From assembly GCA_947169975.1 (NCBI GenBank), contig CAMVRT010000019.1:1-34835 (forward strand): a stretch of 34,835 nt of DNA, read 5' to 3'. Within the stretch, counting starts at the first letter, position 1. The number at the start of each line of letters is the position of its first letter. Shown piece by piece: positions 2,590 to 33,710 of this stretch. Under the pieces are notes generated by a model. It saw only the letters and a program-made list of their open reading frames with translations. It made no database searches and was not told the origin of the DNA. The DNA is from an uncultured Oscillospiraceae bacterium. GTDB lineage: Bacteria; Bacillota; Clostridia; Oscillospirales; Oscillospiraceae. The translations under genes and the position numbers were made by a program.

Positions 2590-5046
2590 TTACTTCACCG
2601 TCAGGGTGGCGGCGGAGGAGATCAGCTTCGTGCCGTTGGCGTCTACGATGACGCAGCGGTACTGATAGCCGTTCATGCTGGCCGAGGGCGTGACCGTCAG
2701 CGTGGCGGTGTCGTGGCCCGTGGCGCCGGAGTTCTTCCAGCTGCCGGTGCTGCTGGTGCGGTACTGCCAGCGGTAGGTCAGGCCTGCACCGGTGGCCTGC
2801 ACCGTGAACTTCACCGCCGTCCCCGCGGTGGTGCTCTTGTTGGACGGCTGGGACGTGATCTTGGGCTTCACGATCAGCTTCGCCGTGGCGGAGATGGTCT
2901 TGTTGCCGTTCTTGTCCGTCACCACGCAGCGGTACTGCTGGCCGTTCCGGGCGGCGGTGATGCCCACGGACAGCGTGGCGGTGTCATGTCCGGTGAGGCC
3001 GGAGTTCTTCCATGTGCTGCCGGTGTAATACTGCCAGCGATAGGTCAGGCCGTCTCCGCTGGCCTCCACCGTGAACTTGGCGGTGCCGCCCACGTAGCCG
3101 GTCTGGTCTTCGGGCTGGGTGAAGATCCTGGGCTTCACCGTCAGCGTGGCGGCAGAGGAGGTAACGGAGCCCGCCGCGTTGCTGACGACGCAGCGATACT
3201 GGTAGCCGTTGCGGTAGGGCATGGCCTCCACCGCCAGGCTGGCGGTGTCGCTTCCGGCGACGCCGCTCTTTTTCCACGTTCCCGTGGCGGACGTGCGGTA
3301 ATACCACTGATACGACAATCCCGTGCCGGTGGCGGTCACATTGAAGTGCGTCAGCACGTACGCCTCCGTGGTTCGGCTCTTGGGCTGGGTGGTGATGGTG
3401 GGCTTGGCCGCAGCGGTCACCGTCAGCGTGGCGGCATTGGAGATGGCTTTGCCCTTCTCGTTCTCCACCACGCAGCGGTACTGGTAGCCGTTGCGGGAGG
3501 TGGCGGCGGAGATGGTCAGGGTACGGGTATTGCAGCCCGTGGCGCCGGAGTTCTTCCAGCTGCCGGTGCTGCTGGTGCGGTACTGCCAGCGGTAGGTCAG
3601 ATTTCCGCCGGTGGCGGCCACCGTGAACTGTACGCTCTCACCCGCCACGGCGCTCTTGTCGGCAGGCTGGGTTTTGATGGCGGGCTTGACGATCTCGGTC
3701 ACGACCTCGGTGGTCTGGTCTATACTCAAATAGCCCTGAACCTCCAGAGAATAATAGTACCAATATTTTACGCCGCTCCAGCTGGTCTGTGCCTGGTGCG
3801 CACCGTGGAAGGCGCTGATCAGATTCGGACAGTTACGGATATCCAGCTCCGCCAGCTGGTTGCCATAGCAATTCAACTGCACAATCGCCGAATTCTTGCT
3901 TACATCCAGCGCGGTCAGTTGGTTGTCGTTGCAGCTAAAATACGCCAACGCCGTATTCTTGCTGACGTCAATGGCTGTCAGCTGGTTGCTGTAGCATTGC
4001 AGATCCGTCAGCGCCGTGTTCTTGCTCACGTTCAGTGATGTCAGCTGGTTGCTGCCGCATTGCAGATTCGTCAGCGCCGTGTTCTTGCTCACGTTCAGTG
4101 ATGTCAGCTGGTTCTTATAGCAGGACAGCACATGAAGCGCCGTGTTCTTGCTCACGTCCAGGGCAGCCAGCTGGTTGCTGTAGCACACCAGCTTTTTCAA
4201 CTCTGCAGCACCAGCCACGTTCAGCGTCTTTAGCTGGTTGCTGTAGCAATACAGCTCCTCCAGCGCGGTGTTTTTGCTCACGTCCAGAGATGTCAGCTGA
4301 TTCTTATAGCAGGACAGCAGATGAAGCGCCGTATTCTTGCTCACGTCCAGCGACGTCAGCTGGTTGTTATAGCAGTAGAGGTAATAGAGCTCCGGGTTAT
4401 TGCTGACGTCCAGACTTGTCAGTTTGTTATCTCTGCACGACAGATAGGACAGCGCCGTATTCTTACTCACATCCAGCGCCGTCAGCTGGTTGCCCGCGCA
4501 CTGCAGCTCAAAGAGCGCGGTGTTTTTGCTCACATCAATGGCTGCCAGCTGATTGCCGCTGAAGGTCAGCGTGTCCAGCTTTGTATTTTTGCTGACGTCC
4601 AGCGACGTCAGCTGGTTGTTGTCGCAGTACAGCGTGTCCAGCTTCGTATTTTTGCTCACATCCAACGCCGTTAAGCTGTTGTTGGCGCAGTTGATGTGGG
4701 TCAGGGCCGTGTTCTTGCTCACGTCCAGCGCTGTCAAGCTGTTTTTGTAGCAGTACAGGAGCTTCAGTGCCGTGAAATACTCCACGCCCTTCAGCGAAGT
4801 GATGCCTCTCTGTCCCACGTCGAGCTCCGTCACTGCGGCGATTTCCGACGTGCTGAGCTTGCCGTCGCCGTTGCTGTCGATGTTGTTGGACACGTAGCTG
4901 CGGAAGTTCTCGTCCGGGAAGTTGGTGGCGTTGATGGTCACGTCGCCGGCGGCCTCTGCCGTGGGAATCACACCCGGCGCCAGCATGGTCAGCACCATGG
5001 CCAGCGCGAGGATCAGCGCGGTCAGTATGTTTGTGTATTTTCGCAT
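2590..5046 (-). CDS. Secreted leucine-rich repeat protein with four Ig-like domains
   Basis: An 818-residue protein. Residues 1-33 form a signal peptide (basic MRKY start, long hydrophobic stretch, then AEA). An EF-hand-like motif (DSNGDGKLSTSE) follows. Fifteen consecutive 21-residue leucine-rich repeats of the pattern L..L.CY.NQLTSLDVSKNTA come next. The rest is four Ig-like domains of about 85 residues, each with a QP near the start, a (Y/W)RWQY-type core and NGYQYRCVV at the end. There is no LPXTG, membrane tail or S-layer domain, so attachment to the cell is unclear. The start at 5046 has AAGGAGG upstream. Such proteins are usually surface adhesins or recognition proteins; no ligand can be named. 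The 63-base DNA period of the repeats invites copy-number change. Expression may be linked to the divergent XRE gene. Confidence 0.88.
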   Translation of the reverse strand: MRKYTNILTALILALAMVLTMLAPGVIPTAEAAGDVTINATNFPDENFRSYVSNNIDSNGDGKLSTSEIAAVTELDVGQRGITSLKGVEYFTALKLLYCYKNSLTALDVSKNTALTHINCANNSLTALDVSKNTKLDTLYCDNNQLTSLDVSKNTKLDTLTFSGNQLAAIDVSKNTALFELQCAGNQLTALDVSKNTALSYLSCRDNKLTSLDVSNNPELYYLYCYNNQLTSLDVSKNTALHLLSCYKNQLTSLDVSKNTALEELYCYSNQLKTLNVAGAAELKKLVCYSNQLAALDVSKNTALHVLSCYKNQLTSLNVSKNTALTNLQCGSNQLTSLNVSKNTALTDLQCYSNQLTAIDVSKNTALAYFSCNDNQLTALDVSKNSAIVQLNCYGNQLAELDIRNCPNLISAFHGAHQAQTSWSGVKYWYYYSLEVQGYLSIDQTTEVVTEIVKPAIKTQPADKSAVAGESVQFTVAATGGNLTYRWQYRTSSTGSWKNSGATGCNTRTLTISAATSRNGYQYRCVVENEKGKAISNAATLTVTAAAKPTITTQPKSRTTEAYVLTHFNVTATGTGLSYQWYYRTSATGTWKKSGVAGSDTASLAVEAMPYRNGYQYRCVVSNAAGSVTSSAATLTVKPRIFTQPEDQTGYVGGTAKFTVEASGDGLTYRWQYYTGSTWKNSGLTGHDTATLSVGITAARNGQQYRCVVTDKNGNKTISATAKLIVKPKITSQPSNKSTTAGTAVKFTVQATGAGLTYRWQYRTSSTGSWKNSGATGHDTATLTVTPSASMNGYQYRCVIVDANGTKLISSAATLTVK

Positions 5047-30900: not shown

Positions 30901-31465
30901 TATGTATCTGAAGCTGCTGAACGACGCCGTGCTGGAGGAGCAGGGCCTGGGCCACCGCAAGCGGCCGGAGTGCTCCGCCGACCTCACCGTCGCCGCCCAT
31001 ATTCCGGAGTGGTATGTGCCCTCCGCCCAGCAGCGGATGGATCTCTACCGCCGCATCGCCGCCGTCACCGGAGCCGAGGATGCCGACGATCTCACCGACG
31101 AGCTGCTGGACCGCTTCGGCGATGTGCCGAAGAGCGTCCGGGCTCTGCTGGATGTGGCGCTGCTTCGCGCCGCTGCGGTGGAGGTGTCCGTCACCGACGT
31201 GACCCAGAAGGGACGGCAGCTGCTGTTCAGCTTTGCCGATACGCTGGACGTAAATGCGCTGATGGAGCTGTGTACCCAGCCCAGCTACCGCAGCCGGCTG
31301 CTGCTGTCTGCCGGGGAGCATCCCCGTCTCACGCTCTACCTCAAGGAGGGGGAGGACGCGCTGAACGCCGCCGGCGAGCTGGTGAACCGGCTGAAGGCCG
31401 GTCAGACCGCTCATGAACAAGAGAAAACGCCGCCCGAGAGCGGCGGAACAGGAGGCACCATATGA
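27911..31465 (+). CDS. mfd: Transcription-repair coupling factor
   Basis: An 1184-residue DNA translocase that removes RNA polymerase stalled at DNA damage and recruits UvrA. The N-terminal third is UvrB-like (QFALRGGILDVYSPG). The RNA-polymerase-interacting region begins near LTPGDLVVHVHHGIGRF. The helicase motor has Walker A GDVGYGKT (651-658), the DEEQ box (752-755) and late motifs TTIIETGIDIPN and QIRGRIGR. The TRCF domain closes the protein. The start codon is GTG, with AGGAGG 8 bases upstream. Its stop overlaps the next ATG by 4 bases (ATGA). The length is normal (about 1150-1180). Confidence 0.97.
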   Translation: MQNLIDLLLTLPQVRELTEAVERGDCPAQITGLSPVHRAQIAAAVRHATGRPLLMLCADEREAERQAADLRILTGRDVTVLPRREWQLRPSAASRDWEHRRLRALYDMEHAEITVTTVDALVQRTIPPEILRHSVLTLDADGRYDVADLTRRLTAAGYTRSDQVEGPGQFALRGGILDVYSPGMDQPVRCEFFDDEVDSLGWFDVATQRRTANCRQALILPAGEVLPHRGDAVGIADRLESAAARVKGESGQRLRATAASDAEQLRQGLTPAGADRYMAAVYPDMTTALDYLRPDMLICVSDSARVGEALRTFLWQLKEDVTAAMEAGYLCGAFADFALSEGDLQKKLADYALCQLESLPTSRCLLPPKSLWQIGAKQLSAYGGSLDAAATDLVHYLTAGYSVLVLCGGEVRAKNLLHFLAERRIPAALDFTGAETLRRNTVLIGIGAISAGCEYPELKLAVLTEGQLTAPVSGKAKKPRVRRDDSRRKIQSYTDLTPGDLVVHVHHGIGRFAGVTRMPVDGVEKDYIKINYAGTDCLYVPCTSLDLVSKYIGSGGEDAEKPVKLNKLGGAEWAKTTYRAKAAARNLAKGLIKLYAQRQRLGGYAFSTDSPWQREFEDAFEYEETDDQLRAAAEIKADMEKPIPMDRLLCGDVGYGKTEVALRAVMKCIMDGKQAALLVPTTVLAQQHYATAVNRFRAFPVTIEVLSRFRSPKQLKDTLERTKQGRVDLLIGTHKLLQKSVEFKDLGLLIIDEEQRFGVAAKERLRERSRQVDTLTLSATPIPRTLNMALSGIRDMSTIEQPPHDRQSVQTYVLEHDWGIVADAIRRELGRGGQVYYLHNRVENIDATASRLRQLLGDDVTVATAHGKMAEADLSRTMQQMAEGDIQVLVCTTIIETGIDIPNVNTLIIEDADRLGLSQLHQIRGRIGRSPRRAYAYLTYRTGKVLTEVAAKRLGAIREYVEFGSGFKIAMRDLEIRGAGNLLGPEQSGYMMSVGYDMYLKLLNDAVLEEQGLGHRKRPECSADLTVAAHIPEWYVPSAQQRMDLYRRIAAVTGAEDADDLTDELLDRFGDVPKSVRALLDVALLRAAAVEVSVTDVTQKGRQLLFSFADTLDVNALMELCTQPSYRSRLLLSAGEHPRLTLYLKEGEDALNAAGELVNRLKAGQTAHEQEKTPPESGGTGGTI

Positions 31466-32544
31466 AAAAGATCCGAATCCTTGCGCTGGTGCTGGCTGCG
31501 CTGACGCTGCTGGCCGCCTGCGGAAAGACCCCGGAAACGCCCGCCGGGGAAACGCCCGCCGGTGAAAAGCCCTCGGGCCTCTTCTACGAGGCCAGCGGTA
31601 TCGATCCCAAGTCCACCATCGCCGCCGTCAACGGCCGGGAGATCTCCGCCGAGGAGTATCTGTACTGGCTGGCGTATCACTGCGAGTCCATTTTGGCTGA
31701 CCGCGGAGGCAGCGTCAAGTGGGACGAGGTCATCTCCGATGACATCACCTACGGCGAGTACGCCCGCCGCAGCGCCCTGGCCACGGTGATCCAGTTTTCC
31801 GTGGCCCGGGATTTCTCCGAGAAGTACGGTGTGGGTCTCACCGATGCCGACCGCGCGCAGCTTCAGAAGAAGAAGGAGGACGACGTACTGCGCTGCGGCG
31901 GCAGGGAAGGCTATCTTCGCTATCTGGAGCGGATCGGCGTCAGCGAGGAGACCTATGACCGTATTGACGAGAACTATGTACTGACCAACCGTCTTGTGGA
32001 GACCGCCGGCGTCGAGGGCAGCGATCTCTATCCCTCCCAGGAGACGCTGGACAACTTTATGAAGGGGAAGGACTACGCCACGGTGCGTCTGATCGTCCTG
32101 CCCGTTGCCGGGATGAGCGACGAGGAGAAGGCGGAGCAGCGGGACATGCTGGCGCAGTGCGCCCGGCAGATCAGAGAGGCTGAGGATCCCGCCGCCAAGC
32201 TGGCGGAGATTGCCCGGTCTCTGGGCCTTTCCGACGGCGACAGGGATCAGACGCTTGCCTCCAATGCGGTGGATATTACACTGATGCAGGCCGTCCGGGA
32301 GCTGGAGACCGGCGAGGTCAGCGATGTGGTGGAGACCAACGGCGCCATGTGCGTTGCGCTGCGCCGTCCGCTGGATAAGAACGCTATTGCCCGGGAGTGC
32401 TTCAGCGCCTATCTGGTGCAGGCACGGCAAAACGCCAAGGTGGAGATCAGCGACAGCTATAAGAATCTGAACGTGGGCACGTTTTACACCTCTCTGGAGG
32501 AGCTGCGCAAGACCATGTTCGATGATGCCGCCGTCAAACAGTAA
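31462..32544 (+). CDS. Lipoprotein of the parvulin/SurA-type foldase family
   Basis: A 360-residue lipoprotein: a basic start, hydrophobic stretch and lipobox LLAAC with C20 as the lipid site, then a Pro/Gly/Glu-rich repeat (ETPAGE). The SurA_N-like part opens with IAAVNGREISAEEYLYWLAY. Around residues 210-310, VRLIVLPVAG...ELETGEVSDVVETNGAMCVALRR fits a parvulin prolyl-isomerase-like domain of the PrsA type. It would help exported proteins fold at the membrane outer face. The domain is divergent, so isomerase activity is uncertain. Translational coupling to mfd (ATGA) is typical of a shared transcript. Confidence 0.82.
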   Translation: MKKIRILALVLAALTLLAACGKTPETPAGETPAGEKPSGLFYEASGIDPKSTIAAVNGREISAEEYLYWLAYHCESILADRGGSVKWDEVISDDITYGEYARRSALATVIQFSVARDFSEKYGVGLTDADRAQLQKKKEDDVLRCGGREGYLRYLERIGVSEETYDRIDENYVLTNRLVETAGVEGSDLYPSQETLDNFMKGKDYATVRLIVLPVAGMSDEEKAEQRDMLAQCARQIREAEDPAAKLAEIARSLGLSDGDRDQTLASNAVDITLMQAVRELETGEVSDVVETNGAMCVALRRPLDKNAIARECFSAYLVQARQNAKVEISDSYKNLNVGTFYTSLEELRKTMFDDAAVKQ

Positions 32545-32632: not shown

Positions 32633-32669
32633 CACGGAAAATGCCGCCCGACGGGCGGCATTTTCCGTG
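32633..32669. terminator. Strong hairpin terminator
   Basis: A 17-base-pair perfect stem with loop GAC (core GGAAAATGCCGCCC/GGGCGGCATTTTCC). It lies after the lipoprotein gene and, on the minus strand, after the tRNA-like RNA region, so it may serve both directions. Confidence 0.75.
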
Positions 32670-32817
32670 AAATGGCGGATTGCAGGCATTTTGCAATGCG
32701 CGCTTCCTGTGCGGATGTGTACGCGGAAAGACCCCGTGCCCACCCTCGTCCGGCGGCCAATGCTGGGTCGTACGTTGTAAACGGTATCGGTGCAGGTATA
32801 CGCGATCGGGGCGTCAC
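32670..32817 (-). other. Structured gene-free region downstream of the tRNA-like element
   Basis: On the minus strand this holds GACGCCCCG (32815-32807) and a second copy of the 11-mer GGCACGGGGTC (32740-32730) that can pair with it. The first copy of that 11-mer is in the T-arm of the tRNA-like element (32845-32835). CGTTtacAACG and TTGCA...TGCAA hairpins follow. A 99-codon reading frame crosses it but has no ribosome binding site or recognisable protein. Confidence 0.35.
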
Positions 32818-32935
32818 AATACAGCGGGGATTCGGACCCCGTGCCGGCCCGGCGGCACACCACCTGTGTGGACTCATTCTCAGCCACAGAGATCGCATTC
32901 GCTCCGCGGGACTACCGACTTTCCGCGCTGTTATA
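32818..32935 (-). ncRNA. Candidate tRNA-mimic RNA directly after the DIP1984-family gene
   Basis: Read on the minus strand: acceptor-like ACAGC (32931-32927); a hairpin (arms CGCGG/CCGCG, or GGA/TCC) whose loop is the canonical D-loop AGTCGGTAG (32920-32912); a middle arm TGTGG/CCACA; a hairpin GTGCCG-CCGGGC-CGGCAC (32858-32841) like a long variable arm; a T-arm CGGGG-TCCGAAT-CCCCG (32841-32825), one base from the TTCGAAT consensus; and GCTGT (32825-32821), which closes with the acceptor-like strand. No CCA and no 7-base anticodon loop is present. Tests: covariance in homologues, Northern blot. Known parallels are bacterial Y RNAs and the tRNA part of tmRNA. Confidence 0.5.
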
Positions 32936-33385
32936 CTATAGGTCGGTGGTCCAGTTGGTCTGCTGGATGGTATTGTCCAGCAGCCGCAGCTGGTGGGACA
33001 TGGCGTCCACCTGCTTCTGCAGGGCGGCCACGTCCACGGTGCTGAGCACCTTGATTTCGGTGCCCCGTGCCCGGTAGGCGGTCTGGCTGGCGTTGTCCAG
33101 CAGCTGCCGGTAAGCCCCGATCTGCAGCGTCAGGCAGTCCCTCTGGGCAAGAAGCTCCGTCAGGGTTTTGCCGTCCACGGTGGTGCGGCAGTTCACCAGG
33201 TTGATCTGTGCGATGCGCCCCTCCAGCGCCGCCACGCAGCGATCCAGCTCAGAGAGCAGCTCTCCGGGGTCCTCGGCGGGCTTTTCCCCCTCCTGCACCG
33301 TGGCGTTGGCTGCCAGACGGCTGCGCAGGTCGGCGATCCGGCGGTTGAGGTCGGCGCGCTCCTGCAATGCTTCGGCAAGTTTCAT
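32936..33385 (-). CDS. DIP1984-family protein (DUF6847)
   Basis: A 149-residue, mainly helical, coiled-coil-like soluble protein. It starts MKLAEALQERADLNRRIADL, then EGEKPAEDPGELLSELDRC, the conserved INLVNCRTTVDGKTLTELLAQRD, EIKVLSTVDVAALQKQVD and the closing LDNTIQQTNWTTDL. The family is named from Corynebacterium diphtheriae DIP1984; some members carry the unsupported name septicolysin. I know of no proven function. GGGAGGA precedes the ATG at 33385. The stop codon is one base from the tRNA-like element, so both are probably on one transcript. A minus-strand promoter lies at 33446-33418. Confidence 0.88.
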   Translation of the reverse strand: MKLAEALQERADLNRRIADLRSRLAANATVQEGEKPAEDPGELLSELDRCVAALEGRIAQINLVNCRTTVDGKTLTELLAQRDCLTLQIGAYRQLLDNASQTAYRARGTEIKVLSTVDVAALQKQVDAMSHQLRLLDNTIQQTNWTTDL

Positions 33386-33531: not shown

Positions 33532-33617
33532 GCCGGTGTGGTGGAATGGTAGACACGGGAGACTTAAAATCTCCTGCTGACAACAGCGTACCGGTTCGAG
33601 TCCGGTCACCGGCACCA
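33532..33617 (+). tRNA. tRNA-Leu(TAA)
   Basis: Acceptor GCCGGTG pairs with CACCGGC; the anticodon stem GGAGA/TCTCC has loop CTTAAAA (anticodon TAA); a long variable arm follows (class II tRNA); T-arm CGGTTCGAGTCCG; discriminator A and encoded CCA. Confidence 0.96.
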
Positions 33618-33634
33618 AACCGGAAAGTAAATAT

Positions 33635-33710
33635 CGCGGAGTAGAGCAGTTGGCAGCTCGTCGGGCTCATAACCCGGAGGTCGGAGGTTCAAGTCCTCCC
33701 TCCGCAACCA
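33635..33710 (+). tRNA. Initiator tRNA-fMet(CAT)
   Basis: Acceptor CGCGGAG and CTCCGCA leave the C1-A72 mismatch that marks initiator tRNAs. The anticodon stem has three GC pairs (CGGG/CCCG) with loop CTCATAA. CCA is encoded. It lies 17 bases after tRNA-Leu. Confidence 0.96.

Follow-up and report, generated by a model that had tools for sequence, protein, structure and literature searches.

A conserved pseudoknotted non-coding RNA accompanies DIP1984-family genes in bacteria

The stretch of DNA analysed here (the window) comprises 34,835 nucleotides of a contig from an uncultured Oscillospiraceae bacterium. Its minus strand carries a DIP1984-family gene, and a structured RNA begins a few bases 3' of the stop codon, with one copy of each in the genome (Table 1). 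Both had been proposed from the sequence of the window, and both are borne out. The gene at 32936-33385 matches the profiles NF038048 (181.1 bits, cut-off 70, 149/149 positions covered) and PF20935 DUF6847 (172.3 bits, cut-off 27). Directly upstream of it, on the opposite strand, are genes for tRNA-Leu(taa) and tRNA-Met (33532-33710, +), and the same tRNA pair lies upstream in two relatives (L004, L005). A tRNA-gene site was rejected as the general setting, because tRNA or tmRNA genes are present in just 9 of the 60 loci scanned. Elsewhere in the window we noticed a Gut-1 RNA (RF01706; 109-185, +, 74.3 bits) and an M23 RNA (RF03006; 20391-20447, −, 50.4 bits).

Table 1. Features of the DIP1984 locus in the window, in 5' to 3' order of the minus strand
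Feature	Position	Strand	Remark or basis
DIP1984-family gene (NF038048 / PF20935 DUF6847)	32936..33385	-	149 aa; stop codon 32936-32938
Whole structured RNA, about 207 nt, P0 strand to P0 strand	32721..32928	-	ends approximate
Outer helix P0, 5' strand GCGCGGAAAG	32919..32928	-	pairs with 32721-32730
Internal loop, 5' side TCGGTAGTC (D-loop of the original prediction)	32910..32918	-	GGTAG at 32912-32916
Helix P1, 5' strand	32904..32908	-	pairs with 32752-32756; both-side changes at every pair
G-C-G between P1 and P2	32900..32902	-	C32901 pairs with G32758
Helix P2, 5' strand AATGCG	32894..32899	-	pairs with 32759-32764
H-type pseudoknot pk1	32867..32892	-	TCTC 32889-32892 with GAGA 32878-32881; TGTGG 32884-32888 with CCACA 32867-32871
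Hairpin P5, GTGCC/GGCAC, loop GCCGGGCC	32841..32858	-	covariation
Pseudoknot pk2, 5' strand GGGC in P5 loop	32847..32850	-	pairs with GCCC 32809-32812
Facultative tRNA-like T-arm CGGGG-TCCGAAT-CCCCG	32825..32841	-	strict count
3' strand with conserved adenines, spacing mostly 6-8 nt	32765..32820	-	
3' strands of P2 and P1	32752..32764	-	covariation
G-rich element GAGGGTGGGCACGGGG, 3' side of internal loop	32732..32747	-	possible G-quadruplex
Outer helix P0, 3' strand CTTTCCGCGT	32721..32730	-	
Inverted repeat between two convergent genes, likely bidirectional terminator	32636..32666	.	sequence
Convergent gene beyond the terminator	31462-32544	+	

The protein has a solved homologue, PDB 3kdq (E 8.5e-22 with a single sequence, 4.4e-34 with a profile). 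Residues that are constant or nearly constant across 22 diverse members include Q31, N62, N65, R105, E110, R134, D137, Q141, N144 and W145. No obvious catalytic set is found among the constant residues of these members, so binding appears more likely than catalysis as the function of DIP1984. In the window protein acidic residues outnumber basic ones (21 D+E versus 18 K+R in 149 aa), and besides DUF6847 it has no Pfam match over the cut-off and no toxin domain. Note that some records annotate the gene as 'septicolysin', although the family shows no toxin domain. The openly licensed main texts consulted on DIP1984 (a plasmid gene list), DUF6847 and septicolysin link no RNA to the gene, and for DUF6847 no paper was found in the openly licensed literature. 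It is possible that the RNA is described elsewhere, for example in the supplements of PMC8040213.

From the outside in, the RNA is ordered as P0, internal loop, P1, a pair of unpaired G, P2, pk1, P5, pk2, the optional T-arm and the adenine strand. The original prediction had ended the element at 32818, while the RNA continues to about 32721. The T-arm hairpin that it described, CGGGG-UCCGAAU-CCCCG, is present at 32825-32841; other parts of its fold were read differently once relatives were compared. Covariation closes the structure not at the proposed ACAGC/GCTGT strands but at P1/P2 (32894-32908 with 32752-32764), with P0 as the outer helix. The supposed D-arm hairpin, AGTCGGTAG, is the 5' side of an internal loop and stands opposite the G-rich element. 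Two further hairpins had been drawn in the middle: the first is the H-type pseudoknot pk1, and the loop of the second pairs with 32809-32812 to form pk2.

Relatives of the protein were collected by scanning GTDB genome contigs, and the best 80 of at least 489 confirmed relatives were kept as loci. In nearly all of these best 80 the same RNA was recognised downstream of the stop codon. Together with the window and later loci they gave 104 downstream stretches; an anchor search yielded a core in 95, and 9 were without a usable one (L014, L038, L085, L094-L097, L104, L105). Alignment A2 has 73 rows, 22 of the 95 being omitted (18 near-duplicates and 4 unusual rows picked out by hand). Mutual information, calculated on A2 free of any structure, ranked the P1/P2 helix first, and RNAalifold gave the same helix with 11 pairs, each with compensatory changes. 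A covariance model built from A2 (R1) matched 98 of 99 sources, most of which had trained it, and produced alignment A3 of 98 rows; that search omitted, among others, L090, L094-L098 and L103-L107. Mutual information in A3 added two further helices, namely P5 and the pairing of the P5 loop with a downstream strand, the latter absent from R1.

In A3, 88.1% of cells are paired as compared to 67.5% in shuffles, double-change cells number 514 versus 160.8, and the covariation score is 0.536 versus 0.199, with 0 of 500 shuffles attaining 0.536. Changes on both sides occur at 24 of 25 pairs, and shifting the partner by 1-3 columns leaves 33-39% pairing. It is important to note that the model to which A3 was fitted included P1, P2, P5 and the T-arm, so that these counts favour those helices; pk2 was not part of it. 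Since related sequences can beat shuffles without any structure, the slide control and the variety of pair types outweigh the shuffle count. Folded by itself, the window RNA does no better than shuffles (z −1.41 over 120 nt and −0.31 over 216 nt), and it is the comparison of relatives that decides. The original prediction called for a covariation search downstream of the gene, and covariation is there in the core helix, P5 and the pseudoknot; the D-loop, T-loop and closing helix are not the conserved unit. That the RNA is real is near certain.

Regarding the core, both G of the G-C-G are invariant (97/97 each) and read as unpaired, and the pair C32901-G32758 is C-G or U-A in relatives. A K-turn reading of GGCGA/TGAC was rejected because C8 pairs with G299 and covaries. 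The topology of pk1 recurs in many relatives with unrelated sequences (mean z 1.3). It reaches p ≤ 0.05 in 53 of 92 distinct segments, the remaining 39 being individually non-significant, and a different knot scored best in a number of rows (L028, L050, L082 and L120 among them). pk2 is absent from the aligning model, yet its columns 118-222 pair in 96 of the 96 cells counted. A GGGGC/GCCCC closing helix was discarded, its 3' strand being paired with the P5 loop. Along the adenine strand the commonest spacings are 6, 8, 7, 8, 6, 7, 7 and 3, and four of the spaced A are conserved at 96-97 of 98. Some rows (e.g. L013, L017, L053) carry a small hairpin-like insert between two adenines in A3 columns 252-275, with the other spacing kept.

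P0 is a helix of free sequence: strands of other sequence are likewise paired in relatives, e.g. L004, L020, L050, L091 and L121, and a clear P0 is not evident in every relative. Inside it a GGTAG-like 5' side of the internal loop faces a GAGGGYGGGNANGGGG-like 3' side. The strict G-rich pattern is present in 82/98 relatives, and with loose patterns both sides of the loop are present in 84/98, both absent in 6/98 and discordant in 8/98. The G-rich part is missing in Acinetobacter (L082) and in six Bacteroidota-labelled bins (L024, L030, L032, L034, L039, L058); two other Bacteroidota-labelled rows (L056, L061) have it. By eye, the 3' strand of P0 merges into terminator-like T-runs in L024, L032, L034 and L058. 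In an Enterococcus copy (L084) and a phage record (L085) runs of G occupy both sides of the loop (GGGTGGG versus GGTGGG or GGGTAGGG), because of which a G-quadruplex in the internal loop may be considered possible.

The T-arm deserves separate attention, since it had led to the proposal of a tRNA mimic. By a strict count, arms with TTCGAAT-type loops occur in 54 of 98 relatives and 44 are without one; a looser count gave 58, some of them false, and the strict one is preferred. The stem shows the weakest covariation (66.5% paired, main helix), with gaps in 35-43 of 98 rows, and on the protein tree (88 rows) the state of the arm switches at least 11 times. In raw counts the GG of the supposed D-loop is associated with the arm (50/4 versus 31/13, Fisher p 0.006), an association not found in phylogenetically independent pairs (4 supported pairs, little power). 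Of the Rfam families, the tRNA-like mascRNA scores highest in the region; it matches over the T-arm and stays below gathering (27.8 bits, gathering 42.5, E 0.0026). Neither in the window nor in 60 loci did ARAGORN call a tRNA or tmRNA in the RNA. A tRNA mimic built on a D/T elbow is therefore a most improbable reading: the frequent TTCGAAT-type loops, the weak mascRNA match and the raw association with the 5' GG speak for it, but the arm is lacking in 44 relatives and comes or goes repeatedly on the tree, the independent pairs, with their low power, lend it no support, and neither an acceptor-like closing nor the layout of D-loop, T-loop and acceptor is conserved. As a defining feature, tRNA mimicry is largely refuted.

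The RNA follows DIP1984 genes in records of Bacillota, Bacteroidota, Pseudomonadota, Cyanobacteriota and Actinomycetota and in a viral contig. The rows of A3 are labelled Bacillota (67), Bacteroidota (8) and Synergistota (1), with 22 unlabelled; many are metagenome bins, the labels of which are fallible. Among the training rows, plasmids of A. baumannii (L082, 47.3 bits) and Paracoccus (L083, 51.9 bits) have the RNA after the gene. So do, outside the training set, plasmids of Enterococcus (L084, 37 bits), Picosynechococcus sp. PCC 7003 (L121, 57.9 bits) and Mycolicibacterium (L122, 51.7 bits) and an IMG/VR contig (L120, 19.2 bits, E 0.0014). Further loci outside that set score 87 bits (L038), 57.6 (L085) and 43 (L052). 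Near the Enterococcus copy there is a T-box-like leader (L084, 1097-1326, −; 88 bits versus a gathering threshold of 93).

In 79 of the 80 loci kept from the at least 489 relatives, most of which loci trained the model, the RNA lies next to the gene or is separated from it by one ORF. When the phylum was sampled evenly, 19 of 299 genomes had a protein match (17 over the cut-off) and 12 of 299 had the RNA; all 12 are among those 19, and each carries a single RNA immediately behind the gene. No RNA match was found in the 280 genomes without the gene, and it is on these that the test rests, because the carrier RNAs or near-copies of them had trained the model. Of the other seven genomes with a protein match, G149 (E 0.010), G048 (0.025) and G226 (0.29) have weak RNA matches at the right place, three have none (see below), and in G158 the protein match itself is sub-threshold only; note that the large genome scans used stricter filters, with which weak matches are lost. 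Among 60 related genomes the same 12 hold the gene over the cut-off and the RNA, one each, and 48 are without the RNA, one of them (G339) having a protein match below the cut-off. Seven of these 12 carriers score identically to first-scan loci or the window and are hence probably the same genomes; five are new (G301, G320, G322, G324, G326; 79-87 bits). In the genus of the window, 12 of 32 genomes have gene and RNA. As a specificity control, viral contigs were searched with a 15-base pattern, and in 80 of at least 120 stretches there was no model match below E 0.66.

Three genomes (G028, G223, G295) have the gene over the cut-off and no model match, with the G-rich motif visible by eye. DIP1984 genes occur in tandem in two cases (L089/L105 in G011, L090/L104 in G097); the second copies, L104 and L105, have no model match and are followed by a decayed-looking RNA in which the core helix is kept by eye. 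Divergent Bacillota families (L094-L096, L097-L099) have a strongly altered RNA with the G-rich element, which calls for a model of its own. The divergent cases G028, G223, G295, L104 and L105 weaken the universality of the pairing. Protein distances and RNA distances are correlated (Mantel r 0.73, n=88; 0 of 999 permutations gave a value as large), which shows joint inheritance only; this and the distances from stop codon to core, the tree and the neighbour counts refer to the 88 of 98 rows with a script-located gene end. The evidence that the RNA is paired with the DIP1984 gene is very strong. Of the protein-RNA pair suggested originally, the strict genomic pairing across phyla and a covarying RNA have stood, and a tRNA mimic as the partner has not.

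In one of the 80 loci kept (L014) there is no RNA beside the gene. Its bin, the Oscillospiraceae metagenome-assembled genome G357, has one DIP1984 gene and one RNA (97.3 bits) on another contig, intact from P0 (ACAAAGAA/TTCTTTGT) to the G-rich element. It is followed by an inverted repeat with T-runs, which a scan lists on the opposite strand only. No DIP1984 match was found within 1.5 kb on either side of this RNA. A gene near it is 80% identical to one in L018, for which reason the RNA locus may once have had a DIP1984 gene of its own. Because G357 is a metagenome-assembled genome, mis-binning is possible; a sound bin would mean that both partners were retained although no longer linked. Gene and RNA are separated by an ORF of 148 aa (3453-3899) in L038. 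These cases, one metagenome-assembled genome and one separated locus, are suggestive of an RNA that acts in trans. They also bear on the possibility that the RNA is a cis-acting 3' UTR element, at which DIP1984 would bind at its own stop codon and control the stability or translation of its own mRNA. We regard that as unlikely. The core does start close to the stop codon (median 21 nt, 45 nt or less in 76/88 loci), so that in most loci there would be little room for a separate promoter, but the RNA is intact away from the gene in G357 and behind another ORF in L038. Autoregulatory sites are usually simpler than a core helix with two pseudoknots and accessory domains.

Apart from the DIP1984-RNA pair itself, no constant neighbour gene was found in 88 loci. 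Clustering by sequence gave 60 groups for the 87 upstream ORFs (largest 9) and 62 for the 83 downstream ORFs (largest 5). Out of 20 upstream proteins scanned, 14 have Pfam matches over the cut-off, mostly to unrelated families, 2 match DUF2229 below the cut-off and 4 match nothing. Since 36 of the 87 upstream ORFs are on the same strand and 35 nt or less away, the gene is often in some operon, with differing partners; a conserved operon partner was rejected, as flanking genes differ between loci. The largest neighbour cluster consists of homologous upstream ORFs in nine loci (L013, L017, L023, L027, L036, L043, L053, L057, L079); they are 430-438 aa long, stop just short of the DIP1984 gene, and show a sub-threshold DUF2229 match in the two scanned. 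On the 8.7-kb A. baumannii plasmid pAB0057 (L123 / NC_011585.2) gene and RNA adjoin znuD2, and BrnT/BrnA are found further up.

We consider it improbable that the two form a toxin-antitoxin-like or defence pair, with the RNA restraining the protein or the reverse. Such a pair would fit the patchy presence (12/60 relatives over the cut-off, 19/299 in the phylum sample), the 370 plasmid records in which the family is present (341 from Acinetobacter), BrnT/BrnA on pAB0057, and the Acinetobacter dif module that a passage of PMC6160057 names abkAB-tonB-septicolysin. However, PADLOC matched 0 of 3 proteins to an anti-phage system, PHROG gave only matches of E 0.02 or worse, and several chromosomal copies adjoin metabolic genes. 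In type III toxin-antitoxin systems of the ToxIN kind, RNA repeats precede the gene of an endoribonuclease toxin. They resemble our pair in having a pseudoknotted RNA beside one protein gene and in occurring on plasmids; here, by contrast, a single RNA unit (by eye) follows the gene, and DUF6847 is the only Pfam match of the protein over the cut-off.

Analogies with bacterial Y RNAs and tmRNA had been drawn as well, and they do not hold as class membership. The RNA has no match in Rfam 15 (the window at gathering, the window region and 13 diverse loci at a looser threshold), Y RNA families included. Ro/TROVE (PF05731) is present in just 1 of 17 DIP1984 genomes and not in that of the window, on which ground a Y RNA was rejected; the single match (L107, G105:C1:1395120-1395431) is about 62 kb from the DIP1984 locus. 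A coding frame was rejected likewise: the three frames are open in 22, 20 and 12 cores out of 98, core lengths fall in all classes modulo 3, and no open frame is conserved. A riboswitch of the next gene does not agree with downstream ORFs that form 62 clusters in 83 loci and lie on both strands. The Ro site of Y RNAs is a stem with bulges near AA/UU pairs, and the core-stem bulges beside AA/UU pairs loosely recall it. Against this likeness stand the missing Rfam match, the rarity of Ro and the diversity of downstream ORFs, so that there is hardly any probability left that the RNA belongs unrecognised to a known class (Y RNA, tmRNA, riboswitch). Judged by sequence comparison, it appears to be a new conserved class of structured RNA, absent from Rfam 15.

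The RNA is thus pseudoknotted and non-coding, it is present or absent with one gene family, and it is normally found at the stop codon of that gene. Probably DIP1984 and the RNA together make up a single ribonucleoprotein module, in which DIP1984 would bind the RNA. Transcription would yield the RNA as the 3' portion of the DIP1984 mRNA, and helix P0 would close the RNA domain, leading to its release or protection. DIP1984 would then bind in trans, most likely gripping the invariant bulged G-C-G in P1/P2 and the regularly spaced adenines. Plug-in effector sites could be provided by the internal loop with its G-rich side and by the T-arm where there is one, the latter recruiting enzymes that normally handle the T-arms of tRNAs. 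A more elaborate and quite tentative version is a mobile ribonucleoprotein. DIP1984 might form a symmetric particle, with the strand of adenines spaced by about 7 bases wound round it, one A per subunit, and P1/P2 docked on it; a G-quadruplex and the interchangeable T-arm might act as effector or sensor modules, and the trans-acting whole might spread as a two-part cassette via plasmids and phage-like elements. By analogy, our best guess for the role of the module is an accessory small ribonucleoprotein that may regulate or protect RNA under some stress, similar to Ro-Y RNA and unrelated to it.

DIP1984 has had a solved structure and no known function, and a constant RNA partner makes that function directly testable. 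It is unusual for an RNA of such complexity, with records from at least five phyla, to be missing in Rfam 15. With its optional T-arm it shows that a part of tRNA has repeatedly been gained by, or lost from, another RNA.

Besides the type III toxin-antitoxin systems, three known pairs of an RNA and a protein come closest. With tmRNA-SmpB the RNA shares a T-arm and pseudoknots; it differs in receiving no ARAGORN call and having no conserved reading frame. One DIP1984 locus (L068) has a separate tmRNA gene. OLE RNA, of about 600 nt, has the membrane protein OapA as partner. A structured RNA with a dedicated small helical partner, whose function has long been unknown, is common to both systems, whereas the length of OLE RNA and its membrane protein set it apart from the DIP1984-linked RNA, which has no Rfam match. 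In the Ro60/Rsr system with Y RNA or YrlA the partner is TROVE and here it is DIP1984, and the RNA described here is without an Rfam match. The vertebrate Ro site, as given in a passage of PMC4726728, has a single C bulging from one strand and three nucleotides from the other, while the DIP1984-linked RNA has two unpaired G on one strand. YrlA bears a tRNA-like domain according to a section of PMC7790460. What the Ro and DIP1984 systems have in common is a non-coding RNA with a conserved bulged stem, encoded beside its protein in scattered bacteria.
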